In this document: one piece after another, positions 930-20,477 of the stretch | How the letters are laid out: the number at the start of each line of letters is the position of its first letter | Numbering within the stretch: the first letter of the stretch is position 1 | DNA from: a virus | DNA length: 24,818 nucleotides | Reading direction: 5' to 3' (one strand) | Virus record (IMG/VR): IMGVR_UViG_3300035212_001195 | Coordinates: 1-24,818 of that record | Program-made: the position numbers and the translations under genes | Notes under the pieces: model-generated | The model's input: only the letters and a program-made list of their open reading frames with translations | Databases searched by the model: none | Told to the model about the DNA's origin: nothing

Positions 930-1607
930 GTGGTAACTAGATTTTATGGAATACGAACTGGTGTAAGAAAAGTATCAGTACCTAATATTATAGGTATTAG
1001 TAAAACTCAAGCACGTATTAATTTAAGCAATATTGATTTAACTTATTTAGAGCAAACTACACCAGGAACAGTTCTTTCTGATAATGATATTGTATCTGCA
1101 CAAAATATAGCATCTGGTGCAATTGTTCCAAAAGGATCAATTGTTCAGTATACCTATAAAGTATTCACCTTTACGCCACCTTACTTCCCACCGTTCTTTC
1201 CACCGTTCTTCCCACCACACTTCCCGCCGTTCTTCCCACCGTTCTTTCCACCACACTTCCCACCGTTCTTCCCACCGTTCTTCCCACCACACTTCCCACC
1301 GTTCTTCCCACCGTTCTTTCCACCACACTTCCCACCGTTCTTCCCACCGTTCTTCCCACCACACTTCCCACCGTTCTTCCCACCTTATTTTGCAGCAGAA
1401 ACATGGGGACCATGCACAAGCTATCAAGTTATACAGCCAACATGTAATGGTGAAGATGTGTATCAAGGAATTTATCAAGGAACTAGAAGGACTTCTAGTC
1501 TTGGAAATGTAGAAGTTTGTAGTGGATTGTCATTTATTGGATTTGGTTCATGTATTGCATCAAATAATAGAAGTTGTGGAGGATCGGGACCAGACGGTCC
1601 TTGCTAA
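930..1607 (+). CDS. PASTA-domain adhesin with PP[F/H/Y]F tetrapeptide array and Cys-rich C-terminus
   Basis: 225 aa; the GTG start is one base after the upstream stop (TAA-a-GTG), so it is probably translated by coupling. Residues about 16-78 match a PASTA domain ('[16 protein letters not shown]' ... '[19 protein letters not shown]'), a fold that in bacterial proteins binds cell-wall muropeptides. Residues 83-154 are 18 uninterrupted PPxF units with x = F (11), H (5) or Y (2). Residues 155-225 hold six cysteines (162, 172, 197, 208, 216, 225) and a 'WGPC' start faintly like a thrombospondin repeat, so disulfides are possible. There is no signal peptide. It sits between fibre genes, so it is probably a virion or tail-tip protein touching the cell wall. 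The PASTA call is strong; the array's function is unknown to me. Confidence 0.75.
1176..1391 (+). repeat. 12-bp/36-bp coding array: 18 PP[F/H/Y]F units
   Basis: The basic unit is 12 bp (Pro-Pro-x-Phe). The third position reads Y F F, then H F F four times, then H F Y, giving a 36-bp higher-order period. The last Phe codon of successive 36-bp blocks alternates TTT and TTC, hinting at 72-bp duplication steps. The sequence is strongly pyrimidine-rich on the + strand. Confidence 0.95.
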
Positions 1608-1613
1608 TAAAAT

Positions 1614-1892
1614 ATGGAAGAAAAATATACGCACGAAAACTATCAGGACTGGATGCCTATGCCAGCCGAAAAGTTTATAGAAGAATATGATAAAAAAATA
1701 AGAGCAGTAAAACCTTGGGACCTTTTAAATCCAGAAGCATACACAACAGAAAGCGTTGCTAATGAAAGACTAGAAATATGTAGACAATGCCCAGAGTTTA
1801 TAGCACTTACTAGCCAATGCAAAAAATGTGGATGTTTTATGGCATTTAAAACAAAGCTATCTGAAGCAACATGCCCATTAAATAAGTGGTAG
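1614..1892 (+). CDS. Small putative zinc-binding protein (four-Cys knuckle)
   Basis: 92 aa, hypothetical. The C-terminal half carries a CxxC pair ('CRQCPEF'), a second CxxCxC group ('CKKCGCFM') and a last Cys in 'ATCPLNKW'; this spacing suggests a zinc ribbon or knuckle. Similar short CPEF/CKKCGC proteins are common in phages near structural genes, but I know of no established function. The N-terminal half is acidic and aromatic. ATG is six bases after the previous stop. It lies between two virion-protein genes, so it may be a small structural or assembly factor; an RNA/DNA-binding role is equally possible. Confidence 0.7.
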   Translation: MEEKYTHENYQDWMPMPAEKFIEEYDKKIRAVKPWDLLNPEAYTTESVANERLEICRQCPEFIALTSQCKKCGCFMAFKTKLSEATCPLNKW

Positions 1893-1910
1893 TCTTAGAA
1901 ATACTTACGG

Positions 1911-1916
1911 TATAAT
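1911..1916 (+). promoter_or_regulatory. Candidate -10 box (TATAAT)
   Basis: A perfect TATAAT in the 55-base gap before the fibre gene at 1948. There is no clear -35 hexamer and no TG extension. A transcript would start near 1923 and include the strong AGGAGG site at 1936-1941. Confidence 0.4.
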
Positions 1917-1947
1917 TAGTTTAGGCAACATCGCCAGGAGGACAATA

Positions 1948-2502
1948 GTGGCAAGTACATTTCCAACAAGCAAAGATAACCTTTCAAACCCAGCAGCAAC
2001 AGATGATTTATCTGGACATGCTGCTCAACATGCAAATGCAAATGATGCAATTGAAGCATTAGAAAATGTAGTAGGTGTAACAAACTCTGCAGATTCATCT
2101 ACTTTGACCTACAAAGTAAATGAGCTTTCAACATCACTCAATACTCTTTCAAACCAATCAGCTAATATTGAAACATTAATGGGTTTGGACGGAAACAACG
2201 ATTTAACAATTTCAGGAATACAAAACAAGACTACTGTAGACTCATATAACTCAGCAGACTATCGGACAGCAACATATGCGCTACAGATTGTAAAAGCATC
2301 TACTGGCGAATCTTATTTTTCAAACATAACAGCTTTAAGAGGAGACTCAGACATATATGTATCTGAATCCAATATAGTAACAAATGCCACTTCTTCAATA
2401 GCAACAACAGCTTTTGAATCAACGGGTGGTATAATTAATCTAACAGTCACCCCAGTATCAGGAGAAGTTACTGTAAGATATTTTAGAACAGCGTTAAAAT
2501 AA
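1948..2502 (+). CDS. Short tail fibre / tail-associated protein
   Basis: 184 aa with a GTG start, chosen because AGGAGG (1936-1941) lies six bases upstream. The N-terminus 'MASTFPTSKDNLSNPAATDD' followed by 'HAAQHANANDAIEALENVVG' is a phage tail-fibre pattern: a probable attachment segment and then a short helix likely to trimerise. The C-terminal ~85 residues ('ADYRTATYALQIVKASTGES' ... 'GEVTVRYFRTALK') look beta-rich and resemble the C-terminus of the 654-aa fibre downstream ('ADYRTAKALVKLKNGVNTQ'). It is therefore probably a short fibre or tip protein sharing a distal domain family with its neighbour. Fibre role is likely; exact position in the virion is unknown. Confidence 0.75.
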   Translation: MASTFPTSKDNLSNPAATDDLSGHAAQHANANDAIEALENVVGVTNSADSSTLTYKVNELSTSLNTLSNQSANIETLMGLDGNNDLTISGIQNKTTVDSYNSADYRTATYALQIVKASTGESYFSNITALRGDSDIYVSESNIVTNATSSIATTAFESTGGIINLTVTPVSGEVTVRYFRTALK

Positions 2503-2525
2503 AGCAGTAAGAGGAGTCATAAATT

Positions 2526-4490
2526 ATGGCAATAGTAAATAAGAACTTTAGAGTAAAGAATGGCCTTATCGTTGACGGTTCCGTCGCAACGGTAAACGGA
2601 TATAACGTATTAACAGAGGCATCAACAGCCTTTATCATCAGCACAGTTGGCGGATCAGCAGATACAGCCAATACTCCTAATACTGTAGTAAAGCGTGACG
2701 GCTCAGGTAATTTTGCCGCAGGGACAATTACAGCATCTATTGTTGGTAATTTAACTGGTAACGTAACTGGTACAGTTTCAAGCCTTTCAAATCACACAAC
2801 AGATACATTAACAGAGGGCACATCAAATTTATATTTTACTAATGCACGAGCATTAGCAGCAACCGCTGCCGCATACGACGCAGCAGGTGCCGCATCAAGC
2901 GCACAGGCAAACGCAGCAACAGACGCCACATCAAAGGTTGCCGCAGAAGCTTCAGCACGTAACACCGCAATTGCTTCAGCAATTGCAACAGAAGTTACAG
3001 ATCGTAACTCTGCAATTGCAACTGCTAAAACAGCAGCTGAAGCCACAGCATCAGCAGATGCTACTTCAAAGGCAAACGCAGCGCAGTCTGCAGCATCAGC
3101 AGATGCTACTTCAAAGGCCAGCGCAGCTCAAGCAGCAGCGATCTCTGCAGCAGCAACAGATGCTACTACTAAAGCTAACGCCGCTAAAACAGCAGCTGAA
3201 GCCACAGCATCAGCAGATGCTACTTCAAAGGCAAACGCAGCTCAAGCAGCAGCAGAAGCCACCGCAGCAGCAGCACTTTCTTCACACCAATCAGATACAA
3301 CAAATATTCATGGAATTGCAGATACTTCGCTTCTAGCAACTACAGCAAATGTAGCTACAGCCAAGTCAGAAGCAATTGCAGCAGCAGCATCAGCCTCAAC
3401 ATCAGCAATCTCAGCAGCAATTGCAACAGAAGTTACAGACCGTAACGCAGCAATCACTACTGCAGTTAATTCAGTTGTAGATGGTGCACCGTCACTTCTT
3501 AATACATTAAATGAAATTGCAGCAGCAATTGCAGATGATGAAAATTATGCAACAACCATGACAACAGCTTTAAATACAAAAGCACCACTTGCTTCACCAG
3601 CATTGACTGGCGTACCAACAGCACCTACTGCAGCAGCAAATACTGATACAACTCAGGTTGCTACAACAGCATTTGCTAAAGCAGAAGCAGACGCAGCTCA
3701 AGCAGCAGCAGCAACAGATGCAACAGATAAGGTAGCAGCAGAAGCAGCACTCAGAGTATCAGGCGACGCAGCTTCAGTATCAACTGCAGCAGCAGATGCA
3801 ACAACTAAGGCTAACGCAGCAAAAACCGCAGCAGAAGCCACCGCAGCAGCAGCACTTACAGCACACGAAGCAGACACAACAAATATTCATGGAATCGCAG
3901 ACACTGCACTTCTAGCAACTACTGCAAACGTAGCAACAGCTAAGTCAGAGGCAATCTCAGCAGCAGCAACAGATGCTACAACCAAGGTTGCAGCCGAAGC
4001 TTCAGCACGAAACTCAGCAATTTCAACTGCAATTTCAGGTGAGGTCACAGACCGCAACGCAGCAATCACAGCAGCTCAGTCAGCAGCTCAGTCAGCAGCA
4101 GAATCTACTGCAGCAAGCGCTCTTACAAATGTAAAGAATGGCACAACACCATTCACAGTAGTTAATGTAAATGATGTTGCAGCAGTACGGGCAGCAACTA
4201 CAACAGTAGCATCCGCAGCAACTGTAAATGCTCTGACATGGGCAGCAGCAGATTACAGAACAGCTAAAGCACTTGTTAAGCTAAAAAATGGTGTAAACAC
4301 TCAAGTTTCTGAGGTACTGCTTACACTTGATACAAGCAACAACGTAGCAATAACTGAATTTGGAACAATTACAACAGGAGTAGATCTTGGAACAGTAACA
4401 GCAGCATATGTTTCAGGCGATGTTTCAGTATCAGTAACAACAACCTACGCATCAACAGATGTAATGGTTTACGCAACACTGATTAAATAA
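2526..4490 (+). CDS. Long Ala-rich tail fibre protein
   Basis: 654 aa; ATG preceded by GAGGAG at 2511-2516. Domain order: N-terminal 'MAIVNKNFRVKNGLIVDGS', shared with the gene at 4555 and probably a base-plate or tail attachment element; a 'LTEGTSNLYFTNARALAATA' fibre module; a long Ala/Thr/Asp/Lys-rich repeat region (about residues 105-520) predicted to form a trimeric coiled coil; interspersed modules 'TTNIHGIADTSLLATTANVA' (twice) and 'GAPSLLNTLNEIAAAIADDE'; and a beta-rich C-terminus from about 555 that resembles the protein at 1948-2502. There is no enzymatic motif. Alanine use is extreme, mostly GCA codons. A structural fibre is near certain in kind; the receptor is unknown. Confidence 0.85.
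   Translation: MAIVNKNFRVKNGLIVDGSVATVNGYNVLTEASTAFIISTVGGSADTANTPNTVVKRDGSGNFAAGTITASIVGNLTGNVTGTVSSLSNHTTDTLTEGTSNLYFTNARALAATAAAYDAAGAASSAQANAATDATSKVAAEASARNTAIASAIATEVTDRNSAIATAKTAAEATASADATSKANAAQSAASADATSKASAAQAAAISAAATDATTKANAAKTAAEATASADATSKANAAQAAAEATAAAALSSHQSDTTNIHGIADTSLLATTANVATAKSEAIAAAASASTSAISAAIATEVTDRNAAITTAVNSVVDGAPSLLNTLNEIAAAIADDENYATTMTTALNTKAPLASPALTGVPTAPTAAANTDTTQVATTAFAKAEADAAQAAAATDATDKVAAEAALRVSGDAASVSTAAADATTKANAAKTAAEATAAAALTAHEADTTNIHGIADTALLATTANVATAKSEAISAAATDATTKVAAEASARNSAISTAISGEVTDRNAAITAAQSAAQSAAESTAASALTNVKNGTTPFTVVNVNDVAAVRAATTTVASAATVNALTWAAADYRTAKALVKLKNGVNTQVSEVLLTLDTSNNVAITEFGTITTGVDLGTVTAAYVSGDVSVSVTTTYASTDVMVYATLIK
3762..3799 (+). repeat. 38-bp direct repeat shared by two fibre genes, copy A
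   Basis: Identical to 5303-5340 in the next long fibre gene and in the same phase (GDAASVSTAAADA). It shows exchange of coiled-coil modules between fibre genes. Confidence 0.9.
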
Positions 4491-4503
4491 TTAATAAAAG
4501 GTA

Positions 4504-4524
4504 TGGGGTCCTTTCAAAACCCCA
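4504..4524 (+). terminator. Possible weak terminator hairpin
   Basis: TGGGGT (4504-4509) pairs with ACCCCA (4519-4524) across a 9-base loop, 13 bases after the fibre stop. No T-tract follows, so it could be a weak terminator or an mRNA-stabilising hairpin. Confidence 0.35.
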
Positions 4525-4554
4525 CCAAAAACATTAGGGGATATGTGAACTTAA

Positions 4555-4926
4555 ATGGCAATAGTAAATAAAAACTTCAAGGTTAAAAATGGCCTTAACG
4601 TAGCAGGACCTGCAACATTTGATGCAGCAGTAAATGTAGACAACTTAGTCTTAAATTCAACCCCCCTTGCCTTCGACTCATCAACTGGAAGATTAAAAAT
4701 CCAGATTAATGGTGCTTGGAAGGAAATTGCCCTTTTAACAGATGCGGCAGAAGATCTAGAAGCTCTAACATTTATGGATATTGGATTGGCTATGGATTAT
4801 AATGGTCAGCCAATCTATACAGTATATGCAAACGGAGTAAATACCACAGCCACAAAATTTGCGGACGGTGGAGAGTACTCAACAGAAGTATATAGCATGA
4901 GCTTTGATTCTGGAACAATTGCATAA
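4555..4926 (+). CDS. Short tail fibre-like protein with shared N-terminal attachment motif
   Basis: 123 aa. The N-terminus 'MAIVNKNFKVKNGLNVAGPA' is nearly the same as that of the 654-aa fibre at 2526, and the DNA is alike too, so the two genes share a duplicated attachment element. The rest differs: 'LAFDSSTGRLKIQINGAWKE' is a beta module like those in fibre and tail-spike stems, followed by an acidic helix ('TDAAEDLEALTFMDIGLAMD') and a beta-rich end. The nearest AGGGG (4536-4540) is 14 bases before ATG, which is long for a ribosome site. It may occupy the same virion position as the longer fibre, as an accessory or alternative tip. Confidence 0.7.
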   Translation: MAIVNKNFKVKNGLNVAGPATFDAAVNVDNLVLNSTPLAFDSSTGRLKIQINGAWKEIALLTDAAEDLEALTFMDIGLAMDYNGQPIYTVYANGVNTTATKFADGGEYSTEVYSMSFDSGTIA

Positions 4927-4955
4927 TTGTTTTGGAATTATTGTAGTGCTATAAT
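4927..4955 (+). promoter_or_regulatory. Candidate sigma70-type promoter with extended -10
   Basis: TTGTTT (4927-4932), 17-base spacer, TATAAT (4950-4955) with TG at 4947-4948 (TGCTATAAT). It drives the 910-aa fibre. The same TGCTATAAT string occurs at 8853 and 20546. Confidence 0.6.
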
Positions 4956-4987
4956 TAACAAATAAGTCTAAACAAGGGGTGGCAAAT

Positions 4988-7720
4988 ATGTCAACAGTAA
5001 GAATTCAAGTAAGAAGAGGTACCGCTTCACAATGGACCTCAGTAAATCCAATTTTGGCAGCAGGAGAAATGGGTGTCGAGTCAGACACAAACCTATTTAA
5101 ATTCGGTAACGGATCTTCTACATGGACTGCCCTTGCATATGCAAACAATTCAGATGTAGCGATTGGTGAAATATCCCAAGACGCAATTAACACCGCCCTT
5201 TCAATGGGAGCGGGGCTCACAAAGTCATACAACGATGGAACGAATACAATCCAGATAACAGTAGACTCAACAGTCGTAGCACTTAAGTCTTATGTAGACA
5301 CTGGCGACGCAGCTTCAGTATCAACTGCAGCAGCAGATGCCACTACAAAAGCTAATGCAGCCCAAGCAGCCGCAATTTCAGCAGCAGCAGCAGATGCCAC
5401 TACAAAAGCTAATGCAGCACGAGCAGCAGCAGAAGCAACAGCTGCAGCAGCACTTTCAGGTCTTTCAAATACAGTAGATTCAGATTTTGTACCAGTATCT
5501 GACCTTGGTCAGCCAAATGGTGTTGCAACACTTAATGCAAGCACAAAAGTTCCTACATCACAAATAGATACAGATATAATTGCTCTTAAGACATACGTTC
5601 AATCACAAGATACAGCTGCTATTCTTTCAGCTAACACTTACACTGATGGTCAGGTTGCTAACTTAATTGGTGGCGCACCAGCAGCACTAAATACTTTAAT
5701 TGAACTTTCTACAGCTTTGGGTGCAGATGCAAACTTTTCAACAACAGTAACAAATGCACTTGCTTCAAAAGCACCACTAGCCGCACCAACATTTACAGGA
5801 GCAGTAGTTCTTCCTTCAACAACTTCGATTGGAAATGTTGAGGGTGGGGAAATTGCTTACCTAGATGGAGTAACATCTTCAATTCAAACTCAAATTAATG
5901 ACAAGGCTCCTTCATCTGGCCCAACATTCAGCGGCACAGTAACACTACCTTCAACAACTTCAATTGGTTTAGTAGACGCAACAGAAATTGCTTACTTAAA
6001 CGGAGTAACATCAACAGTTCAGGGTCAGCTCGATGCAAAGGCACCACTGGCTGGACCAATATTTACTGGCTCAGTAACACTCCCATCAACTACAGCAATA
6101 GGCACAGTAGATGGAACAGAAATTGGATACCTAGATGGAGTTACATCAACAATTCAGGGTCAGCTCGATGCAAAGGCACCACTGGCTGGACCAATATTTA
6201 CTGGCTCAGTAACACTCCCATCAACTACAGCAATAGGATCAGTTGATGGAACAGAAATCGGATATCTAAACGGAGTAACATCAACAGTTCAAGGTCAGCT
6301 TGACTCAAAAGCACCACTAGCTGGACCGATATTTACTGGCTCAGTGACACTACCTTCTACAACAGATATTGGACAGGTAACCGCAGAAGAAATTGGATAC
6401 GTAAATGGAGTAACATCTTCAATTCAAGGCCAGCTCGATGCAAAAGCACCATCCGCAGGCGCAGTATTTACAGGAAATATAACCCTTCCATCAACAACAT
6501 CAATAGGACTAGTTAATTCAACTGAAATTGGATACTTAGATGGAGTTACATCTGCGGTTCAAGTACAACTTGATGCACTAGCGCCAAAAGCAAACGCAGT
6601 ATTTACAGGAACATTTGAAGCCCCAGTAGCAACAATTACTGGAGCCATGATGGCAAACGGAACAGTTACATCATCCCAGATTGCAGATGCAACAATTGCA
6701 ACAGGCGATCTTGCAGACGGAGCTGTAACTTCAGCTAAAATTTTAGACGGAACTATTCTAACAGGAGATCTTGCAGACGAAGCTATAACATCAGCTAAGA
6801 TTGCAAATGGAACTATTGTAGATGCAGATATAAATGCGTCAGCAGGAATAGCCACATCAAAGATTGCTGGACTAGATACAGCACTTGGACTACGGGCTAC
6901 TCTAGCAGGTCCAACATTTACAGGTACAGTAGTTCTTCCGTCAACAACTTCAATAGGCCTAGTTGATTCAACAGAAATTGGATATGTAAATGGAGTAACA
7001 TCTGCAATACAGACACAGCTGGATGCAAAAGCACCACTTGCCTCACCAACATTTACAGGTACCGTCTCAGGAATTACAAAGACCATGGTTGGACTAGGAT
7101 CTGTTGATAATACAGCGGATGCTTCAAAACCAGTATCAACAGCACAGGCTACAGCAATCGCAGCTGCCAAATCAGAAGCAATTGCAGATGCAACTTCACA
7201 AGTTAATGCACTATTAACAGGTGCACCAGCAGCTCTTAACACACTTGATGAACTTGCTGCAGCACTTGGTGATGATGCAAACTTTGCCTCATCAGTAACA
7301 ACCTCTCTTGGACTAAAAGCACCACTTGCCTCACCAACATTTACAGGTACAGTAACAGTTGCAGCAGCTGGCGTTGCGTTTACAGATAAAACACAAACAA
7401 AGGCTGGCGTACCTTCACGAACACCAATTGCAAGTACAATTTCTGCAAGCACAACATTGGCAGGAGGCCTACAAGATAACATGGTTCCGCTAGCTGGAGC
7501 TGTAGCAATTACAATTGGCGATGCATCAAATGCACTGTATGCTGTTGGAGAATCAGTCGATTTCTACCAGATATCAGGAACTGGTGCAAGCTTTGCTAAA
7601 ACAGGATCAGTCAACCTTCTCTTCACACCAGGCGCATTGCTTAGAACAACATATTCTTCAGCAACTGCACAAAAAGTATCTTCAACTGACTGGTTGATAT
7701 ACGGAGATTTGAAAGCTTAA
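4988..7720 (+). CDS. Large tail fibre / receptor-binding protein (Mtd_N-like head, 45-aa repeats)
   Basis: 910 aa from ATG 4988; this start leaves 8 bases after AAGGGG (4974-4979), whereas the in-frame GTG at 4979 overlaps that site. Residues 1-53 ('VRIQVRRGTASQWTSVNPIL', 'AAGEMGVESDTNLFKFGNG') match the N-terminal domain found in major tropism determinants and many fibres. Next comes an Ala-rich coiled coil, a 'GAPAALNTLIELSTALGADA' module, six tandem 45-residue units (5810-6619) starting LPSTT, a segment of repeated 'TSAKI'/'GDLADGA' motifs, a seventh LPSTT unit (6935-7069), 'ITKTMVGLG', a second GAP-LNTL module, and a beta-rich tip ending 'STDWLIYGDLKA'. The tip resembles that of the fibre at 2-928. 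It is a structural adhesin without visible catalytic motifs. Confidence 0.88.
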   Translation: MSTVRIQVRRGTASQWTSVNPILAAGEMGVESDTNLFKFGNGSSTWTALAYANNSDVAIGEISQDAINTALSMGAGLTKSYNDGTNTIQITVDSTVVALKSYVDTGDAASVSTAAADATTKANAAQAAAISAAAADATTKANAARAAAEATAAAALSGLSNTVDSDFVPVSDLGQPNGVATLNASTKVPTSQIDTDIIALKTYVQSQDTAAILSANTYTDGQVANLIGGAPAALNTLIELSTALGADANFSTTVTNALASKAPLAAPTFTGAVVLPSTTSIGNVEGGEIAYLDGVTSSIQTQINDKAPSSGPTFSGTVTLPSTTSIGLVDATEIAYLNGVTSTVQGQLDAKAPLAGPIFTGSVTLPSTTAIGTVDGTEIGYLDGVTSTIQGQLDAKAPLAGPIFTGSVTLPSTTAIGSVDGTEIGYLNGVTSTVQGQLDSKAPLAGPIFTGSVTLPSTTDIGQVTAEEIGYVNGVTSSIQGQLDAKAPSAGAVFTGNITLPSTTSIGLVNSTEIGYLDGVTSAVQVQLDALAPKANAVFTGTFEAPVATITGAMMANGTVTSSQIADATIATGDLADGAVTSAKILDGTILTGDLADEAITSAKIANGTIVDADINASAGIATSKIAGLDTALGLRATLAGPTFTGTVVLPSTTSIGLVDSTEIGYVNGVTSAIQTQLDAKAPLASPTFTGTVSGITKTMVGLGSVDNTADASKPVSTAQATAIAAAKSEAIADATSQVNALLTGAPAALNTLDELAAALGDDANFASSVTTSLGLKAPLASPTFTGTVTVAAAGVAFTDKTQTKAGVPSRTPIASTISASTTLAGGLQDNMVPLAGAVAITIGDASNALYAVGESVDFYQISGTGASFAKTGSVNLLFTPGALLRTTYSSATAQKVSSTDWLIYGDLKA
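5303..5340 (+). repeat. 38-bp direct repeat shared by two fibre genes, copy B
   Basis: Identical to 3762-3799; see copy A. Confidence 0.9.
5810..6619 (+). repeat. Six tandem 135-bp (45-aa) fibre repeats
   Basis: Units begin at 5810, 5945, 6080, 6215, 6350 and 6485, each opening with Leu-Pro-Ser-Thr-Thr and containing 'EIxYxxGVTSxxQxQ' and 'FTG'. A separate seventh unit lies at 6935-7069. Within the array, 6018-6102 and 6153-6237 are identical over 85 bp, so this part duplicated or converted more recently than the rest. Confidence 0.92.
7031..7099 (+). repeat. 69-bp direct repeat, copy B
   Basis: Identical to 491-559, about 6.5 kb away in a different fibre gene. Confidence 0.95.
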
Positions 7721-7741
7721 TTGAATAGGGGAATATAAATA

Positions 7742-8815
7742 ATGGCAAAAAAAGTAGGTAAACACTCCGCAGCGGCTAATGATTTCTTAGAGCCAAAGCC
7801 AGTAGTAATAACATCAGCAACCGATATTGGAACTGAACGAGTTTTAAATAACGGAGCAATTAATATAATCTGGACACTCCCAGCTGGATCGCCAGAAGCA
7901 ACACTATATACCATTACCCCATCACCAGCAGTATCTGGAGCACCTTGGACAACAACAGGATTATCATATCTTGCACAGGGATTGGCCTCAGATCAGCTAT
8001 ATACATTTTCAATTGTTGCGTCTAATGGCGCAGGCGCAGCAGCAGCAACAGTAACATCTGCTGTGCGGTCAACAACAAAGCCAAGCGCTCCAACTTCAGC
8101 ATCAGTAGCTTCAGCACACCCAGTAGCTAATCAAGATACAGTTACATGGTCTCCTCCTACATTTACTGGAGGAAAGGCTATTTCAAGCTATACAGTTGTT
8201 TCTTCAGATGGCCCATCTTATCCAAACTCTGTTTCTCCAAAAGCTATCGCAGAGACAGGTGGAACAACTCAAAGTTATACAATTTATGCAGTTAATCCAA
8301 ACGGCTCAAGTCCAGGAACGGTTGTTGGACCAATAACAACATTTACACCACCTCACTTTCCGCCGTTTTTTCCACCTTACTTCCCACCATTCTTCCCGCC
8401 GTTCTTCCCACCACACTTCCCACCGTTCTTCCCACCTTACTTCCCACCATTCTTCCCACCGTTCTTCCCACCACACTTCCCGCCATTTTTCCCACCTTAC
8501 TTCCCACCATTCTTCCCACCATTCTTCCCACCTTACTTCCCACCGTTCTTCCCACCACACTTCCCACCATTCTTCCCACCATTCTTCCCACCTTACTTCC
8601 CACCATTCTTCCCACCACACTTCCCACCATTCTTCCCACCGTTCTTCCCACCTTACTTCCCACCATTCTTCCCACCACACTTCCCACCGTTCTTCCCACC
8701 ATTCTTCCCACCTTACTTCCCACCATTCTTCCCACCACACTTCCCACCGTTCTTCCCGCCATACTTTGCGCCACCAACATTTGGTGGAAGTAAATGGTCA
8801 CCAAGAGCATACTAA
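7742..8815 (+). CDS. Fibronectin type III-like adhesin with long PP[F/H/Y]F tetrapeptide array
   Basis: 357 aa; ATG preceded by AGGGGA (7727-7732). Residues ~20-112 and ~113-200 look like two FN3 domains: '[20 protein letters not shown]' with '[13 protein letters not shown]', then '[10 protein letters not shown]', '[20 protein letters not shown]' and '[11 protein letters not shown]'. Residues 203-342 are 35 uninterrupted PPxF units with x = F (20), Y (8) or H (7). The C-terminus is a short '[15 protein letters not shown]'. There is no signal peptide or membrane segment. FN3 domains are common in phage tail proteins, where they aid weak surface binding. Like the PASTA protein at 930, it joins a cell-surface-type domain to the array, preceded in both by Thr-Phe-Thr. 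It is probably a virion surface protein; the array's purpose is unknown, and it lies just upstream of the oxygenase module. Confidence 0.75.
8348..8767 (+). repeat. 12-bp/60-bp coding array: 35 PP[F/H/Y]F units
   Basis: The third positions read H F Y F F three times, then Y F H F F four times, then Y F H F Y. The higher-order period is therefore five units (60 bp), unlike the three-unit period at 1176-1391, and the H and Y positions swap once part-way. It is pyrimidine-rich on the + strand. Confidence 0.95.
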
Positions 8816-9306: not shown

Positions 9307-9978
9307 ATGGAAAAAAATTTTTCCTATTCATCCAAAGAAGAACTTGCACCTGGAGTATGGGTGTATAGAGATGTATTCAAGCCAGAGTTTGATATTATAA
9401 ATAGACTTGAAGGCACACTAAAATCTAGTAATGGTCTATACAACTGGCAAGACGCAACCGTCGGATATAGAGAAAAAATGCCATCCTATCGTGACTGTGT
9501 AGATTTTAAAATAAACTTCTTTGACTATCCTGGTAAAGATCCATACATGGTTAAATTTGATGAAATATGGAAAGACTCCAGAGACGCACAAAAAGTTGCA
9601 TTAGATGATTACTCTGCTTTTTATAATATTGAATTAAAATATTGGGAAGCAATGAACTTTATTAGATATGGCGAAGGCCAACACTTCTCGTATCATTCAG
9701 ATCACGGATGGTCTTATATTTCAGTAGTATCTATGGTTGGCTATTTGAATGATGATTATGAAGGCGGCGGACTAAGATTTGATAAGATAGACTTAGAAGT
9801 AAAGCCAAGAGCTGGAGATCTATATATATTCCCTTCATCGTATCTATTTTCACATAGCGCATTGCCAGTAAAATCTGGAACAAAGTATTCAGTTGTTACA
9901 ATGACAGACTACAATGATGCCACACACACTCAAGAATTCTACAGACAGTTTAAATCAAGCGCATCAGAGCCAGAGTAA
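9307..9978 (+). CDS. 2-oxoglutarate/Fe(II)-dependent dioxygenase 1 (prolyl 4-hydroxylase-like)
   Basis: 223 aa. The double-stranded beta-helix core is recognisable: HxD iron ligands His130 and Asp132 ('FSYHSDHG'), the loop 'YLNDDYEGGGLRF', 'KPRAGDLYIFPS', distal iron ligand His183 ('FSHSAL') and Lys193 ('GTKYS') at the usual 2-oxoglutarate Arg/Lys position. Such enzymes couple decarboxylation of 2-oxoglutarate to hydroxylation of a substrate, often proline in proteins. N-terminal 'LAPGVWVYRDVFKPEFDIIN' is the helical lead-in typical of the group. Its TAATG junction overlaps the next gene by one base. The substrate is not shown by sequence; context suggests a virion protein. Confidence 0.88.
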   Translation: MEKNFSYSSKEELAPGVWVYRDVFKPEFDIINRLEGTLKSSNGLYNWQDATVGYREKMPSYRDCVDFKINFFDYPGKDPYMVKFDEIWKDSRDAQKVALDDYSAFYNIELKYWEAMNFIRYGEGQHFSYHSDHGWSYISVVSMVGYLNDDYEGGGLRFDKIDLEVKPRAGDLYIFPSSYLFSHSALPVKSGTKYSVVTMTDYNDATHTQEFYRQFKSSASEPE

Positions 9979-10703
9979 TGTTCAATATAGATGTATACAG
10001 AATAAGTCAGTCACCAGCAGAGATAAAACAATTAGGCATTAAAAGAGACTGGATGGATGACACTGATGACTCACACGCATACAAATGTTTTCCATTAAGC
10101 TTAAGCAATTCACTAGGATGGGGACTTTATTTCCCAGAAGACATAACTTTTATCTGGGATGGCATTTCTTCATCCAATACAAGCGATCACGTCAAAATTC
10201 TTAAAGGCGAAAAGTATGCTTATACAAGTAGAGAAAATGCAACTATAAGTTTTAGAACAGGCTTACTGATAAGAACAGATCCAGACGTTACAATGCTTGC
10301 AATGCCTGCTCCAAATTATATATTAGACGGAGTACAGCCATTTACAACATTAATAAGTACATCGTTTTTTAAAGGTGAGTTCCCAGTAGCTTGGAGAATA
10401 ACAAGACCAAATGTAGAAATAACAATTAAAGCTGGTACACCAATAGCTTCTTTGTTGCCAATATCATTATCAGGACTAAATAATTCTGAAGTAAATTTAA
10501 AATCAATGTTTGATTTAGAGCCAGGGTTTTTTCCTGGTGAAGATTATGGTAAAATAGTCCATGACATTAATTCTTCAGGACGGTGGACAAATTTTTACAG
10601 AGATGCTGTAGACCATAAGGGTAAAAAAATTGGAGATCATGAAGTTAAGTCTTTAAGGCTTAAAGTCAATGATGGAAAGCCAGAGATGTGCAATGACAAA
10701 TAA
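9978..10703 (+). CDS. DUF6065-like protein 1
   Basis: 241 aa. 'KRDWMDDTDDSHAYKCFPLS' followed by 'SNSLGWGLYFPEDITFIWDG' is the signature I associate with DUF6065, a family of unknown function seen in phages and marine bacteria, often beside 2OG-Fe(II) oxygenases. A later 'FPVAWRITRPNVEITIKAGT' resembles the 'GTPIAxLxP' strand also found in the next gene, so the two are probably distant paralogues. No known catalytic triad is visible and no HxD motif, so it is not itself one of the oxygenases. Starts at ATG 9978 inside the previous stop (TAATG), i.e. translationally coupled. A partner or recognition subunit for the oxygenases is possible but unproven. Confidence 0.65.
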   Translation: MFNIDVYRISQSPAEIKQLGIKRDWMDDTDDSHAYKCFPLSLSNSLGWGLYFPEDITFIWDGISSSNTSDHVKILKGEKYAYTSRENATISFRTGLLIRTDPDVTMLAMPAPNYILDGVQPFTTLISTSFFKGEFPVAWRITRPNVEITIKAGTPIASLLPISLSGLNNSEVNLKSMFDLEPGFFPGEDYGKIVHDINSSGRWTNFYRDAVDHKGKKIGDHEVKSLRLKVNDGKPEMCNDK

Positions 10704-11418
10704 AATAATATTTCATTCTGCAAAAACGTATAATAATAAAAATGGAGAAAATGGCCCAGTGCCAGCAGCAAACTCAGTACCATTTTGGTGGAAAGACGCA
10801 GATAGATATATTAAAGACCCTAATGGAGAGCCTTATATAAATGCAAGCGGAGTTGGAAAAGTTCTAAGCTACAAGTCCTGTCCAGCAATGCTTGATACAT
10901 TTACATCTGGATACATGCTAAGAACACCATGCGATTTAGATTTTTATATAAAAAGAGGCAGAACCAAAGTAAGAATACCTGTTGGATTTGAAGATATTGT
11001 TGGTGAAAGAGAACCAATGGAAGGATTTCAAACACCCCCAGGATTTGATGATAGACATTTTCATTGGTATTTAAATTGGGCACCGCAAGTTCCCAAAGGG
11101 TACAGCACTCTCTATGTTCAACCACTTAATCATTTTGATTTACCATACGTTACTGTTGCTGGTATAATAGATAGTGATAAGGTTACAAACTCTGGCCTAC
11201 TGCCATTTTTTTTAAAGACTGGCTTTGAAGGCGTAGTTCCAGCAGGAACACCAATTGTTCAAATATTTCCTTTTAAAAGGGAAGACTGGGAAATGGAATA
11301 TAAGTTCTACACCCCAGAAGAAATCTTTGAGCAGACTAGAGAAAATTCATTAAAGTTTAGGGATCCAAATGGTGGTGTCTATAAGAGAGACTACTGGGAA
11401 AAAAGGAAGTATAAATAA
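10693..11418 (+). CDS. DUF6065-like protein 2
   Basis: 241 aa from ATG 10693; in-frame ATGs at 10669 and 10672 would overlap the upstream gene more and have no better ribosome site. Overlap with the upstream gene is 11 bases. Features: 'GPVPAANSVPFWWKDADRYI', 'SYKSCPAMLDTFTSGYMLRT', 'NWAPQVPKGYSTLYVQPLNH', then 'AGIIDSDKV' and 'GVVPAGTPIVQIFPFKREDW'. This pattern (trim to a target, PxGYSxLxxxPLN, aGTPixQifPFKR) occurs in phage proteins of the DUF6065 type and is a cupin-like beta-sandwich in appearance; I do not know its function. It ends two bases before dioxygenase 2. The shared C-terminal 'AGTPI' motif supports paralogy with the preceding gene. Confidence 0.62.
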   Translation: MTNKIIFHSAKTYNNKNGENGPVPAANSVPFWWKDADRYIKDPNGEPYINASGVGKVLSYKSCPAMLDTFTSGYMLRTPCDLDFYIKRGRTKVRIPVGFEDIVGEREPMEGFQTPPGFDDRHFHWYLNWAPQVPKGYSTLYVQPLNHFDLPYVTVAGIIDSDKVTNSGLLPFFLKTGFEGVVPAGTPIVQIFPFKREDWEMEYKFYTPEEIFEQTRENSLKFRDPNGGVYKRDYWEKRKYK

Positions 11419-11420
11419 AC

Positions 11421-12116
11421 ATGTCAATGCAAAAACAGATTAACACAAATGAAGGTCATGATTATAAAAAACTTGGCTCAATAACCCCATCTGGATTTTT
11501 TGGTAATTCAGTAGATAATATTGTTGAATTAAAGAACTTCGTAACCGATGAAGAAGCAAGAAGATTAACAAATTTTGCTCTTAATAATAAGACTTGGGAT
11601 ATAACAAGCTCTCACACAAATGAAAATGGAACAGTAATCTATGATGCAAATGTTTGGGCGGATAGAGTTTGCACAAGAAGATCAATGGAAATTTCAGCTG
11701 ATCCGACAATTGTGAATCTTGTAGAAAGCCTAATTACAAGACTACAGCCAGAAGTAGAAAAGTTTTTTAATGTAAAAATCCAAGCCACAGGACCAGCAAT
11801 TGTTAGATGGCCAATTGGAACAAGACAAGACCCACATGCAGATAAAGAACTGCATGAGGGCCCAGATGCTGGAACACCAAACGATTTCCCACATTATGAC
11901 ATTGCATCATTGTTTTATTTTAACGATGACTATGAAGGCGGAGAGCTATTTTTCCCAGTACAAGGCATTGAGATAAAGCCAAAAGCTGGATCTGCATATT
12001 TTTTCCCAGGAGACATGCATTATGTTCATGGAGTCAGACCAATTATATCTGGTAATAGATACACCTCTCCATTCTTTTGGAACATACTAGAGCACACTGG
12101 AGATAAGAAGCCATAA
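11421..12116 (+). CDS. 2-oxoglutarate/Fe(II)-dependent dioxygenase 2 (prolyl 4-hydroxylase-like)
   Basis: 231 aa, with the most canonical active site of the five. Iron ligands His139 and Asp141 ('DPHADKE') and His203 ('YVHGVRP'), 2-oxoglutarate anchor Arg213 ('GNRYTSPFFW'). Core loop 'YFNDDYEGGELFF' and 'KPKAGSAYFFPGDMHYVHGV' are classic for P4H-type enzymes. N-terminal 'IVELKNFVTDEEARRLTNFA' is the usual helical start. ATG at 11421 is two bases after the previous stop; a second in-frame ATG at 11427 is possible. It overlaps the next oxygenase by one base (TAATG). Catalysis is very likely; the substrate is unknown. Confidence 0.9.
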   Translation: MSMQKQINTNEGHDYKKLGSITPSGFFGNSVDNIVELKNFVTDEEARRLTNFALNNKTWDITSSHTNENGTVIYDANVWADRVCTRRSMEISADPTIVNLVESLITRLQPEVEKFFNVKIQATGPAIVRWPIGTRQDPHADKELHEGPDAGTPNDFPHYDIASLFYFNDDYEGGELFFPVQGIEIKPKAGSAYFFPGDMHYVHGVRPIISGNRYTSPFFWNILEHTGDKKP

Positions 12117-12955
12117 TGTCAATAGAGCATGTAGAAATCTATCCTAAAATCTTTGTTTATAAAAACATGTTTAAAGATTTAGATGGCCTTTTAGATGCAA
12201 TAAAACAGTCAGAGATAAACCCAGAAGGTTCTATTATGAGCGAGTGGGAAGACTGGTATACATTTGGAACAGAGATAGACACATTTAATCTTAATCTTGA
12301 AAAAACAGATAGAGTAGCAAAAGAAGAAGAGCAGATCCAAGACGTAAATAAAGTTTTTTATGAAGTGGTAAACGATTACTTTAAAAAACACAATGTAGAA
12401 TATAGCTTTGATTTATTTTTAGATGAAGTAGATGGTGAAGAAAAAAGCAAATGGATTAAGATGGGCCCGTCTATATGTAGGTATAATCCAGATAAAGATG
12501 TTGCAGACAATTTAGCAATGCAATATCACACAGATTATCAAATTGAAAAAAGAGATGCTAGAGGATATAATTTTTCAGTATCAGTAACAATGTATCTTAA
12601 TGATGATTACGAAGGCGGGGGAATTGATTTTTATATAAACGAAAAGCTATTCTACTATAAGCCAGAAGCAGGAGATATAATTGTTTTCCCAGCGGGGGAT
12701 CCAGGATTCCTTACAGAAGATGAAGAGTTATATAGACATGGGGTTAGAAATATTAAAGGTTCTCCAAAGTACTTTATTAGAAACAATATGCTAAGATTTA
12801 ATGAAGGAACAGAAGAGTGGATAAAAAATCAATCGCTTTATGGCAAAGATTTATGGCAACAGATGGAACAAGAAAAATGGAAAGCTAATAGAGAAATTGG
12901 CTTTTATCAAGAAATTACTGAAAAAGAAATAGAGAGTGCGGTGAGAATTAAATGA
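12116..12955 (+). CDS. 2-oxoglutarate/Fe(II)-dependent dioxygenase 3 (longest, C-terminal extension)
   Basis: 279 aa. Ligands: His138 and Asp140 ('YHTDYQ'), His208 ('YRHGVR'); 2-oxoglutarate anchor is Lys218 ('SPKYF') or possibly Arg222. Core loop 'YLNDDYEGGGIDFYI' and 'KPEAGDIIVFPAGDPGF' are present. N-terminal 'EIYPKIFVYKNMFKDLDGLL' as in the others. About 50 extra C-terminal residues are charged and aromatic ('WQQMEQEKWKANREIG') and not part of the catalytic fold; they could mediate contacts. Its ATG overlaps the stop of dioxygenase 2, and its end (ATGA) overlaps dioxygenase 4 by four bases. Confidence 0.85.
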   Translation: MSIEHVEIYPKIFVYKNMFKDLDGLLDAIKQSEINPEGSIMSEWEDWYTFGTEIDTFNLNLEKTDRVAKEEEQIQDVNKVFYEVVNDYFKKHNVEYSFDLFLDEVDGEEKSKWIKMGPSICRYNPDKDVADNLAMQYHTDYQIEKRDARGYNFSVSVTMYLNDDYEGGGIDFYINEKLFYYKPEAGDIIVFPAGDPGFLTEDEELYRHGVRNIKGSPKYFIRNNMLRFNEGTEEWIKNQSLYGKDLWQQMEQEKWKANREIGFYQEITEKEIESAVRIK

Positions 12956-13695
12956 CATTTAATTTAGAAAATAAGAAAGAGCTAAAAGAAGATATTTATT
13001 TATTTGAAGACTTCCTTACTGAAGAGGAATGTGAAGCAGTAATAAAATACTGGGCGCACTCTGTAGAAAAAGGCACACTGCCATGGCAGGGTATTTCTTT
13101 TTATGAGTCATATGCGTCTAATCTACCAAACGATGAAGACGTTGTTAATTTTGGTCTTCCAAGAGACTTTTTTGATACGCTGGAAAAAAAGATTCAAGAG
13201 GCAATGGAAATAACTAGAGGAGACTCAGTTAAGCTAGTTAGTTACCATGCACAAAAATGGACAGAAGGAGCATTTGCTGGATACCATTCAGACAATAGCC
13301 CACTTGACGATCCAGAGTATAATGCATTTGAAAGAAGTAAATGGGCAGCATTCCTTTATCTTAATGGAGATTTTGAAGGCGGAGAACTAAACTTCCGTGA
13401 CCATGATATTTCAATAAGGCCAAAAGCTGGAATGCTTGCTGCATTTTCAGGTGGTCATCATAATATACACGAAGTCCAGATAATAACAAAAGGAATTAGA
13501 TATACAATTGGATCTTTCTGGGATAACGCCGAAGCAGAGTATTCAGAAGAAACCAAAGCAAAGTGGGAAGAAGAAATAACTGAAGCTAGAATTAGACAAG
13601 CCGACGATCAAAAGGTATGGCAAGAAAATAAGTCTAAAGGGATAATGGAAGAGCCGCCTCCATATCAAAAAGAACGATTGAATAGGGGTAAGTAA
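12952..13695 (+). CDS. 2-oxoglutarate/Fe(II)-dependent dioxygenase 4
   Basis: 247 aa. Ligands: His112 and Asp114 ('GYHSDNS'), His173 ('NIHEVQ'); 2-oxoglutarate anchor Arg183 ('GIRYTIGSFW'). Core loop 'YLNGDFEGGELNF' varies from its neighbours. N-terminal 'DIYLFEDFLTEEECEAVIKY' is the standard lead-in of P4H-like enzymes. Residues ~195-247 form a charged, probably helical tail ('TKAKWEEEITEARIRQADDQ') ending in a Pro-rich stretch ('EEPPPYQK'). Overlaps by four bases upstream and one base downstream, so all enzymes of the run are translated together. Substrate unknown. Confidence 0.87.
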   Translation: MTFNLENKKELKEDIYLFEDFLTEEECEAVIKYWAHSVEKGTLPWQGISFYESYASNLPNDEDVVNFGLPRDFFDTLEKKIQEAMEITRGDSVKLVSYHAQKWTEGAFAGYHSDNSPLDDPEYNAFERSKWAAFLYLNGDFEGGELNFRDHDISIRPKAGMLAAFSGGHHNIHEVQIITKGIRYTIGSFWDNAEAEYSEETKAKWEEEITEARIRQADDQKVWQENKSKGIMEEPPPYQKERLNRGK

Positions 13696-14303
13696 TGGCA
13701 ATGTATGAAGCACAAGAGCTATCAAAGAACATTTTTTATTTTAAAAATGCTATTTCCGAACCAGCTAGGCTTATAGATTTTATTGAAAAGCAAGATGGAG
13801 AAGAAGACGGCAACACAAAAATAATTTCAAAATGGGCACCTTGGAGAGCAAGCAATTCCCCTACAGATATCTACGGGGAAGAAAAGCTAATAAGCTCTAA
13901 TTTTAAAGAAAAAGAATTAGCTCCAAACGCAAAAGAGCTTTATATCATTAACAGCATAAGGTCTAACATGCATTACATATGCACACAGTACAAGATATAT
14001 AACGATCTTGAAGGAGATGTAAAGCTAGACCCAGAATTTGGTATAAAGAAATACTATGTCGGAGAAAGCCTTGGCAAGCATGCAGACCAATATGATGGCA
14101 ATTTTAAGCTTAGGTTTTCAATTGTAGCTTATTTAAATGATGACTACACAGGCGGAGAGCTAGCCTTTGCAAATCAAAACGTAATGATAAAGCCAGAGGC
14201 GGGGAGCATAGTTATATTCCCATCATCTGAGCCATATCTTCATGAGTCAAAAGAACTAAAGTCTGGGGTCAAATATATGTGCCCAGGATTCTGGATGCAC
14301 TAA
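13695..14303 (+). CDS. 2-oxoglutarate/Fe(II)-dependent dioxygenase 5 (shortest)
   Basis: 202 aa. Ligands: His129 and Asp131 ('GKHADQYDG'), His183 ('YLHESK'); 2-oxoglutarate anchor Lys193 ('GVKYMCPGFW'). Core loop 'YLNDDYTGGELAFAN' and 'KPEAGSIVIFPSS' are intact. N-terminal 'ELSKNIFYFKNAISEPARLI' matches the lead-in seen in the other four. It ends shortly after the catalytic core, with no tail. ATG 13695 lies in the previous stop. It is the last gene of the oxygenase run; a new promoter follows at 14316. Confidence 0.85.
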   Translation: MAMYEAQELSKNIFYFKNAISEPARLIDFIEKQDGEEDGNTKIISKWAPWRASNSPTDIYGEEKLISSNFKEKELAPNAKELYIINSIRSNMHYICTQYKIYNDLEGDVKLDPEFGIKKYYVGESLGKHADQYDGNFKLRFSIVAYLNDDYTGGELAFANQNVMIKPEAGSIVIFPSSEPYLHESKELKSGVKYMCPGFWMH

Positions 14304-16117: not shown

Positions 16118-16456
16118 ATGAATATCTTAAACCAAAAATCACAGATTCTAGAAGAAACCACACTTGGCATATACGTGTGGGAAATGCCCGATGGCAGATG
16201 GATTGGAGACGATGATGGCAACTTCCTATCAGTCACATCCAAAAAAGGAAACAGATCTAAAATGGACGCTTTGGCTAGAGAGGTTCGCTCATACGGTATT
16301 TATGAGGGCCAACCTAAATTCCTTTCTGGCAGAAGAAAAATCGATGACGAAGAATTTGAATATCAAAACGAAAGACTAAAGTGGGGCCTAACACCAGACC
16401 CTATGGATATTGGTGTTTATAAAGACTCAATGTTAAGAAATGGTAAGGTCAAATGA
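16118..16456 (+). CDS. Hypothetical protein upstream of portal
   Basis: 112 aa from ATG 16118. An in-frame ATG six codons earlier (16100) overlaps the predicted -10 box, so I take the later one. The protein has 'IYVWEMPDGRWIGDDDGNFL', a basic middle ('KKGNRSKMDALAREVRSYGI') and 'KFLSGRRKIDDEEFEYQNER'. I do not recognise a domain. Short proteins of this kind with a 'W.mPdG.w.gd..GN.l' opening do occur before portal genes in phages. Its stop overlaps the portal ATG (ATGA), so the two are coupled; a head-assembly or packaging role is plausible but only by position. Confidence 0.65.
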   Translation: MNILNQKSQILEETTLGIYVWEMPDGRWIGDDDGNFLSVTSKKGNRSKMDALAREVRSYGIYEGQPKFLSGRRKIDDEEFEYQNERLKWGLTPDPMDIGVYKDSMLRNGKVK

Positions 16457-18045: not shown

Positions 18046-18062
18046 GTTTAATCGACTACTAT

Positions 18063-18091
18063 TTGCGTTAGAGTAGATAAACCTATAAAAT
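18063..18091 (+). promoter_or_regulatory. Candidate promoter for the protease/scaffold/capsid unit
   Basis: TTGCGT (18063-18068), 17-base spacer, TAAAAT (18086-18091). Seven bases later is ATG 18099, so the transcript would be leaderless or nearly so; no Shine-Dalgarno is visible. Confidence 0.55.
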
Positions 18092-18098
18092 TAAGCAT

Positions 18099-19409: not shown

Positions 19410-19427
19410 AGGGTAGGTGAAATAAAA

Positions 19428-20477
19428 ATGAGTAATGAACTATTAGAAAAAGCAGTAGCAGCAGGTACAAACGTAACTGGTAGCTATGCATCCGCAACTG
19501 GTGGAACTGGAGTACACACAGCGTCTGAAAACGGCAACGGTGGACTTCTAAACCCAGAACAATCAGCGCGATTTCTAGACTATATGTTCGACGCTACCGT
19601 AATTGGTAAGGTTGCACGTACTGTCCGAATGAAAGCAGATACAACAGAGATTGACCGTATGTCTATCGGCGAGAAGCTTGTAAAGCTTGCAACTGAAGCA
19701 GACAACACAGGAGTTAACTCACCTGTAACATTCTCAAAAATTTCTTTGACAACAAAGAAGCTTCGCATGGACTGGGAACTTTCAACAGAGTCTCTTGAAG
19801 ACAATATTGAAGGCGCAGACGTCGAAGATCATATTGCCAGAATGATGGCAACACAAGCAGGTAACGATATTGAAGATTTGATCCTAAACGGAGACACTTC
19901 ACTAACAGACGATGCCCTATACAAGTCATTTAATGGCGTTGTAAAGAAGGCAAAGACTTCAGGTCGCGTAGTAGATGCAGCTGGAGCAGCCGTTTCACGT
20001 GCTGTATTCAACTCTGCACTTAAGGCACTTCCACGTAAGTACAAGCAGCGTCGTACAGACCTTCGCTTCCTTGCAGGATCAAACTTGATCCAGGATTACC
20101 TATACTCAACATCTAATTCAACAAACTTTGCAAACCCACAGGATATTGCTTCAGGCATCATCCGTGGTGATGTTCCAGTTGTTGGAGGTCCAGCAGGATA
20201 TGTAGCTCCATACGCATTTGGTATTCCAATCGTTGAAGTTCCACTTCTTAGCGAGACACAGGCTGGTACATATGCTAGCCCATCAGGTTCACACGGAGAT
20301 ATCCACTTGACATTCCCAAATAACGTTGTTATTGGTATCAAGCGTGATGTTACTGTTTACCGCTTCTTCTGGCCACGTAAGGACTCAGTCGAGTACACAA
20401 TGTATACTCGTGTTGGCGTCCAGATCGAGCAAGCAGATGCTTGGGTAGTCGTAAAGAACGTTAAGGTTGCTTCTTAA
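19428..20477 (+). CDS. Major capsid protein (HK97 fold)
   Basis: 349 aa; ATG preceded by a GGGTAGGTG ribosome site. Features typical of HK97-fold capsid proteins: a flexible N-terminus with 'GGTGVHTASENGNGGLLNPE', 'RTVRMKADTTEIDRMSIGEK' (N-arm/E-loop region), 'LTTKKLRMDWELSTESLEDN', 'HIARMMATQAGNDIEDLILN', 'LPRKYKQRRTDLRFLAGSNL', 'GIPIVEVPLL' and a C-terminal 'GIKRDVTVYRFFWPRKDSVE'. Roughly 415 copies would form a T=7 shell if standard. Codon choice differs from neighbours: arginine is mainly CGT/CGC rather than AGA, as expected for heavy expression. It is followed by a universal-stop-like run and a strong terminator. Confidence 0.93.
   Translation: MSNELLEKAVAAGTNVTGSYASATGGTGVHTASENGNGGLLNPEQSARFLDYMFDATVIGKVARTVRMKADTTEIDRMSIGEKLVKLATEADNTGVNSPVTFSKISLTTKKLRMDWELSTESLEDNIEGADVEDHIARMMATQAGNDIEDLILNGDTSLTDDALYKSFNGVVKKAKTSGRVVDAAGAAVSRAVFNSALKALPRKYKQRRTDLRFLAGSNLIQDYLYSTSNSTNFANPQDIASGIIRGDVPVVGGPAGYVAPYAFGIPIVEVPLLSETQAGTYASPSGSHGDIHLTFPNNVVIGIKRDVTVYRFFWPRKDSVEYTMYTRVGVQIEQADAWVVVKNVKVAS

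Follow-up and report, generated by a model that had tools for sequence, protein, structure and literature searches.

We analysed virus record IMGVR_UViG_3300035212_001195 (IMG/VR) over its positions 1 to 24,818; this whole stretch of 24,818 bases (GC content 39%) is called the window below. It carries two genes for proteins with long tandem arrays of the tetrapeptide Pro-Pro-x-Phe (PPxF, x being the variable residue) and a cluster of five genes for 2-oxoglutarate and Fe(II)-dependent (2OG-Fe(II)) oxygenases. Since such arrays recur in many other uncultured phages, usually beside a cluster of prolyl-hydroxylase-like genes, the data suggest that these phages build hydroxyproline-rich surface fibres. 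The two array genes and their parts are:

930..1607, + strand: array protein 1, 225 residues, with a PASTA-like domain, an 18-unit array and a Cys-bearing tail
972..1145, + strand: PASTA domain of array protein 1 (residues 15-72; Pfam PF03793, E 8.4e-6)
1176..1391, + strand: (PP[F/H/Y]F)18 array of array protein 1 (residues 83-154; tandem-repeat period 12/36)
1392..1604, + strand: Cys-bearing C-terminal tail of array protein 1, 71 residues, read from the translation
7742..8815, + strand: array protein 2, 357 residues, with an fn3 domain, a 35-unit array and a 15-residue end
7853..8041, + strand: fn3 domain of array protein 2 (residues 38-100; Pfam PF00041, E 2.3e-5, 24.9 bits, slightly below the Pfam cut-off of 25)
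8348..8767, + strand: (PP[F/H/Y]F)35 array of array protein 2 (residues 203-342; tandem-repeat period 60)

A sequence-only reading of this DNA had reported both genes, with 18 and 35 unbroken PP[F/H/Y]F units, and both counts are correct; the 18 consecutive units of array protein 1 have x = YFFHFFHFFHFFHFFHFY. As that reading described, the arrays begin after Thr-Phe-Thr-like residues (VFTFT in array protein 1, TTFT in array protein 2) and finish with PPYFA. Its statement that the proteins end in arrays holds for array protein 2, where 15 residues follow, but not for array protein 1, where 71 residues with several Cys follow. Pfam agrees that different head domains are joined to one common repeat (PASTA in array protein 1, fn3 in array protein 2). 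The repeat also belongs to no known family, as had been thought: the array has no Pfam or PHROGs match, and neither array protein was matched in PHROGs at E 0.1. Neither the collagen Gly-X-Y nor the extensin Ser-Pro3-5 motif is present in the window arrays, which contain no Gly and no Arg. Proline-rich stretches were confined to the two array proteins among the 16 window proteins measured, and a protein identical to array protein 2 was present in loci L029 and L083. AlphaFold modelling of array protein 2 with no alignment supplied gave a pLDDT of 41 and an array without secondary structure.

The tandem-repeat scores were 376 for array 1 and 642 for array 2, and the DNA periods of 36 and 60 bp indicate that the arrays grew by DNA duplication. 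With the window amino-acid composition and residues taken as independent, the probability that 18 such units follow one another from a given position is about 1e-77. Chance or artefact as the origin of the arrays is ruled out by the repeat scores, this probability and the aromatic bias at x described below.

The oxygenase cluster starts at 9307, just past the span of the sequence-only reading (which ends at 8815), and was missed there; it is the best clue to mechanism. Its genes are:

9307..9978, + strand: 2OG-Fe(II) oxygenase 1, prolyl-hydroxylase type by its PDB relatives, with HxD..H..K (Pfam PF13640, E 2.6e-14)
11421..12116, + strand: 2OG-Fe(II) oxygenase 2 (PF13640, E 3.8e-8; motif)
12116..12955, + strand: 2OG-Fe(II) oxygenase 3 (PF13640, E 1.5e-6; motif)
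12952..13695, + strand: 2OG-Fe(II) oxygenase 4 (PF13640, E 1.5e-8; motif)
13695..14303, + strand: 2OG-Fe(II) oxygenase 5 (PF13640, E 2.2e-12; motif)

The 2OG-FeII_Oxy_3 domain scored above the curated cut-off in all five. The HxD..H..K/R motif, comprising the iron triad and a basic residue placed for 2OG, was found in 5/5 window oxygenases and, with a loose pattern, in 923/994 homologues from four locus sets. When a profile of the five sequences was compared with the PDB, prolyl 4-hydroxylase (P4H, E 7e-12), prolyl 3-hydroxylase 1 (P3H, 4e-10) and PKHD hydroxylases were the best matches, followed by the prolyl 4-hydroxylase 5c5t (weaker, 5.8e-6) and the lysyl hydroxylase LH3; oxygenase 1 alone gave LH3 first. 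The window oxygenases are predicted from these matches to be of the peptidyl-prolyl hydroxylase type (P4H/P3H/PKHD).

The search of viral metagenomes for (PPxF)n that the sequence-only reading had proposed was run at the DNA level for (PPxF)6 with any residue allowed as x, and the repeat was found to recur in at least 120 viral stretches, which rules out a repeat peculiar to the window phage. Counts from such collection scans are lower bounds and lean toward well-sampled phages. Arrays in which F, Y, H or W filled position x in 80% or more of the internal units were called aromatic. By this rule x was aromatic in 118/120 viral loci, among which each of F, Y, H and W occurs, whereas 73 loci matched in bacterial and archaeal genomes (GTDB, 84,980 species) and only 5/73 had aromatic x, the cellular x being mostly P, V, L or S. 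A cellular repeat is ruled out by this difference, and in these scans the aromatic arrays are nearly restricted to viruses. Three of the five aromatic cellular loci (L150, L165 and L184) have heads like those of phage array proteins and lie in metagenome bins labelled Verrucomicrobiales and Gammaproteobacteria; they are probably binned viruses. The remaining two (L181 and L198) have x = H only. One viral array, in L109, consists of PP[S/D]F units (13 S, 4 D), so that x is not aromatic.

The scanned loci and the window together yielded 121 distinct proteins having four or more aromatic units. Pfam heads among 61 full-length array proteins were fn3 (31), PASTA (8), Ig-like He_PIG (3) and Peptidase_S74 (1). 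PASTA heads may bind the cell wall. The single S74 match (E 3.6e-11) was assigned from its sequence to L036:1082-1762, where a PASTA-like head and a nine-unit array are followed by a Peptidase_S74-like tail-spike chaperone domain. Array ends were classed by simple pattern rules in 177 distinct complete open reading frames (ORFs) of all array types from loci other than the window: 88 stop within 8 residues past the array (45 of these with a final Lys), 30 run on into a Hint-like domain, 22 have a Cys-rich tail (at least 5 Cys) and 37 fall outside these classes.

In relatives, other units, ([ASG]PP[GSANTVR]FF)n and mixed PFF/PPYF, occupy the same gene neighbourhood, and the PP[F/H/Y]F type represents one variant within a large family of phage proline-aromatic repeats that is tightly linked to prolyl-hydroxylase-type genes. 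Pro and Phe are kept in every array type seen, while x varies. Since the units in loci found through their oxygenases differ widely (PPFF, PFFPPFF, APPGFF, PFFPNFC), what is conserved, as judged by comparing the repeats, is not a single sequence but a property: tandem repetition of a Pro placed two residues ahead of a Phe. Two portal relatives with one oxygenase each, G136 (L428:9368-10492) and G128 (L426:9394-10458), have short repeats of the NPGPxF / PGFNPGF kind that may be a degenerate or ancestral version of the array.

Searches by tblastn with both window array proteins and the heads of three relatives found no match in 50,697 phage records. The string PPFFPPFF was not found in the open-licence PubMed Central (PMC) literature, and no report of the arrays or of their link to oxygenases was found among the titles and abstract openings listed from it. 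Shorter array strings turn up, by title and among the matches listed, in papers on cathelicidins, KCTD proteins and the like.

The linkage of arrays to oxygenases was tested with 50 array records, picked by length from 80 of at least 120, and 50 random viral records, likewise picked from 80 of at least 120 matches to an arbitrary 14-mer. PF13640 was detected in 44/50 array records versus 7/50 random records (Fisher p 3e-14); at least two copies, and up to 11, were present in 41/50 array records, compared with one each in the seven positive random records. An oxygenase profile based on the window matched 87/120 array loci versus 1/120 random loci (324 hits versus 1, in about 1.0 Mb each). The median gap from an array gene to the nearest oxygenase was 489 bp; it was at most 2 kb in 77/86, and both genes lay on the same strand in 59/86. 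The random control differs from the array set in sample type and lineage and was therefore supplemented by two tests, one within a single lineage and one in the reverse direction.

For the lineage test, 41 records of at least 16 kb with portals 74-100% identical to that of the window were used. Oxygenases were present in 35/41 and (PPxF)4 in 3/41, and a simple equation of the PPxF array with the oxygenase cluster is ruled out by these counts. The link between arrays and oxygenases does not hold in this lineage unless arrays of the other proline-aromatic unit types are included. With a composition score requiring at least 10 Pro and at least 10 F/Y/W/H in 32 residues (maximum 8 in 120 random loci), arrays were found in 28/41 records, all 28 with at least five oxygenases. 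The 13 array-less records had no oxygenase (6), one (3), two (1) or three to five (3), so that three or more oxygenases accompanied 28/28 records with arrays and 3/13 without (p 3e-7); in two of the three-to-five group, G101 and G123, the contig ends near the oxygenase genes.

For the reverse test, loci were fetched by oxygenase similarity alone. A proline-aromatic array was present in 72/80 of them (the best 80 of at least 561 confirmed) versus 0/120 random loci, and in 44/44 of those of at least 12 kb. Eleven of the 80 contigs were already in the earlier sets, all array-positive; without them the counts were 61/69, and 36/36 at 12 kb or more. Among the 50 array records, 11 have portals at least 52% identical to that of the window, 2 have distant ones (24%) and in 37 none was found. 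One of these 37, G028, has a portal that belongs to another family (phrog_9232), and that of G047 is a distant relative of the window portal (24%) matching phrog_2662 and phrog_12; the large records G006, G028 and G047 have some other genes in common and are not wholly unrelated. A Gp23 search gave no match in the tested records, nor in the controls. The array-oxygenase linkage is strong, runs in both directions and occurs in more than one phage lineage.

Other features of the window place the arrays among structural genes:

1614..1892: small DUF6171 protein with a Cys-rich end (phrog_13558), between array gene 1 and the fibre genes
4979..7720, + strand: fibre-like protein with an Mtd_N domain (Pfam PF18454, E 1.5e-12), immediately 5' of array protein 2
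9978..10703, + strand: DUF6065 protein (PF19541, E 2e-34), predicted dUTPase-type fold, third element of the module
10669..11418, + strand: second protein resembling DUF6065 by eye, no Pfam match
16453..18045, + strand: portal protein, the lineage marker (phrog_12, E 2e-55)

The span 16453-20477 holds the portal, head maturation protease and major capsid-type genes (PHROGs matches). On their 5' side are the fibre-like genes (one with Mtd_N), the two array proteins, the five oxygenases and two further proteins, one of them DUF6065. Among the 15 matches listed, the window portal is 54-56% identical to portals of large Streptomyces phages (Stanwilliamsviridae), so the host of the window phage is likely actinobacterial. 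The virion-type context proposed in the sequence-only reading is supported: the array genes lie in the tail-fibre region, adjoining fibre genes, the portal, protease and capsid genes follow, and genes around the arrays have matches in tail-fibre, minor-tail and structural families (75 of the 193 non-redundant neighbours other than oxygenases were compared). Mtd_N was found in 14/75 of these neighbours. A big fibre-like gene beside the array gene recurs in related loci, with the order large fibre-like gene, array gene, oxygenases. The GSHPx (glutathione peroxidase) model was matched by 6/75 neighbours, which is odd among fibre-like genes and may reflect a short chance motif. Homologues of the DUF6171 protein occur in 19/120 array loci, 23/80 oxygenase loci and 2/120 random loci.

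DUF6065 homologues were found in 80/80 oxygenase loci, 62/120 array loci, 31/80 portal-relative loci and 0/120 random loci. An AlphaFold model (pLDDT 90.6, 56 sequences) was compared with known structures (VIA) and matched dUTPases throughout the 50 matches listed, with Z of 10-11, and a dUTPase-type fold is predicted. By tblastn the protein had no match in 50,697 phage records, and no mention of DUF6065 was found in the open-licence PMC literature. Homologues of the 10669..11418 protein occur in 58/80 oxygenase loci, 15/120 array loci and 0/120 random loci.

In some relatives (L486:7444-7926, L328:508-999, L488:170-673 and others) the array is followed by a C-terminal Hint/intein-like domain with a Cys start and often an HN or HNK end. 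Cys1 is invariant in 16 aligned domains, most of which, though not all, have HN close to the end, and Pfam Intein_splicing was matched by 11/16. A profile of these domains matched the bacterial intein-like domain 2lwy (E 2e-8) and several inteins; by this resemblance it is possible that the domain self-cleaves or couples the array end.

We lean, with moderate confidence, towards the array being the phage's own hydroxyproline scaffold, modified by the neighbouring prolyl hydroxylases to give stiff or sticky fibre segments. The array proteins would be fibre- or tail-associated surface proteins in which a variable folded head (fn3, PASTA or Ig-like) is joined to a long repeat with a P-x-F core, and the neighbouring oxygenases, five in the window, would be peptidyl-prolyl hydroxylases, some perhaps acting on other residues. 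The array would be modified after translation with the use of 2-oxoglutarate, O2 and Fe(II); through hydroxylation a polyproline-II rod would become stiffer and its aromatic faces would change in stickiness, and the outcome would be a stalk or adhesive brush on the virion. We infer here the action of the enzymes on the array, their target residues, the presence of the array in virions and its mechanical or adhesive role.

Several points weigh against the hydroxyproline scaffold. The density of oxygenases is level over about 12 kb around the arrays, as for a cassette or cluster, and PF13640 itself includes enzymes with other substrates. No PF13640 was found in 6/50 array records: L054 and L058 match the window-based profile, and L014, L016, L052 and L073 do not. 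The array lies at a contig end in L058 and L073, leaving L014, L016 and L052 as unexplained exceptions. In the portal lineage, G107 (116 kb) is a true exception: it has 5 oxygenases but lacks an array. The relatives had already been inspected when the array definition was widened ([ASG]PPxFF, mixed) and the score cut-off chosen, and the reverse test, resting on the best 80 of at least 561 loci, covers related phages. (PPxF)3 was absent from all five cultured cyanophages checked, and a proline-aromatic array from the two of them read whole; the scaffold explanation therefore does not extend to these phages.

The linkage could on these grounds be that of a co-inherited fibre cassette and not of enzyme and substrate. 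The array would then serve without modification as a structural or adhesive part of the fibre, and the oxygenases would do no more than share its cassette and act on fibre side chains, the host surface, nucleic acid or 2-oxoglutarate metabolism, which we regard as unlikely, though it is the most serious competitor. In its favour, the oxygenases spread over about 12 kb with no decay from the array, DUF6065 and fibre genes are also linked, the cyanophages checked hold several 2OG oxygenases without arrays, and phage 2OG oxygenases have been assigned to DNA repair or 2OG/nitrogen signalling in excerpts of earlier papers (PMC9146016, PMC3037559). However, the arrays track the multi-copy cluster within one portal lineage and in 44/44 long oxygenase loci, and fibre genes like those of the window are less constant in the 80 oxygenase loci (49/80 and 48/80). 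The unit sequence is moreover very variable, composition being kept and not one inherited sequence, and the nearest solved relatives, by their PDB names, act on peptidyl proline.

It is improbable that the oxygenases hydroxylate residues of the array other than proline (Phe, Tyr, His or the terminal Lys), for instance to form cross-linking or metal-binding side chains. Several oxygenases accompany each array, LH3 is among the PDB relatives, and 45/177 array ORFs close with a Lys no more than 8 residues past the array, all of which would suit such targets; however, the five-sequence profile has its best PDB matches in prolyl 4-hydroxylases, and it is Pro and Phe that are constant in all array types seen while x is variable. 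A wall-acting or antimicrobial-like peptide, comparable with the proline-rich cathelicidin PR-39, is very improbable. PR-39 has PPxF-like stretches, and the string PPFFPP is present in papers on PR-39 and similar peptides among the matches listed, as far as those entries go, but the window arrays lack Arg and are carried by fibre-neighbour proteins, and the hydroxylase linkage would be left unexplained. Least probable of all is functionless low-complexity DNA spread by slippage, with which higher-order DNA repeats and the 24 versus 29 units in proteins with near-identical heads (L027/L064) agree, but not the aromatic x in 118/120 viral loci (x in cellular genomes being mostly P, V, L and S), the same composition arrived at with different units and heads, or the linkage to enzymes.

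Extending the hydroxyproline scaffold beyond the window, we tentatively propose that a widespread family of tailed phages builds hydroxyproline-rich fibres, in which a dedicated, horizontally moving module of several prolyl hydroxylases and the dUTPase-fold DUF6065 protein would mature P-x-F arrays, some with a self-cutting Hint domain that may couple the array end to another molecule; we hold this with less confidence than the scaffold itself. 2OG-Fe(II) oxygenases are common in marine phages, where their role is unsettled, and the viral use of prolyl 4-hydroxylase is called 'cryptic' in an excerpt of PMC9301287. The linkage would supply a target for this puzzling group of phage enzymes. Since their close genetic partner is obviously proline-rich, the question of the enzymes' role becomes directly testable, at least for these phages. 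If the proposal is true, bacterial viruses make hydroxylated protein materials, collagen- or extensin-like in kind, virion maturation needs oxygen and 2-oxoglutarate, and a large share of the non-cyanophage phage 2OG-Fe(II) oxygenases is explained.

Among known systems, the cyanophage 2OG-Fe(II) oxygenases are similar in that several copies of the PF13640 family occur per phage: the five cultured cyanophages had 7-11 matches each at E 0.001, 4-7 of them above the curated cut-off. They differ in being distant (28-44% identity over part of the protein, among the matches listed) and dispersed through the genome in the five checked; with several oxygenases and no (PPxF)3 in the five, and no proline-aromatic array in the two read whole, the tested cyanophages rule out that all multi-copy phage 2OG oxygenases serve such arrays. 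Plant extensins and hydroxyproline-rich glycoproteins share tandem proline blocks and some Tyr motifs and are hydroxylated post-translationally in plants, but the extensin motif is Ser-Pro3-5 and is glycosylated (PMC4769139); no glycosyltransferase was found among 20 window proteins scanned with Pfam. Collagen-like phage fibre proteins are also phage-encoded proteins with repeats containing proline, according to an excerpt of PMC3368898. They form a Gly-X-Y triple helix, whereas the window arrays have no Gly, and Pro-Gly appears in the APPGFF units of some relatives. A virus of a eukaryotic alga reportedly encodes a prolyl 4-hydroxylase, and proline-rich viral repeats are said to have been proposed as its substrates in a 1999 study. 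This combination of a virus-encoded prolyl 4-hydroxylase with proline-rich viral repeats resembles that of the window, and the window profile matches 5c5t (E 5.8e-6), which we take to be the PBCV-1 enzyme. The algal system belongs to a virus of a eukaryote and has another repeat, whereas in the window several oxygenases lie beside a tail-fibre-type P-x-F array protein.

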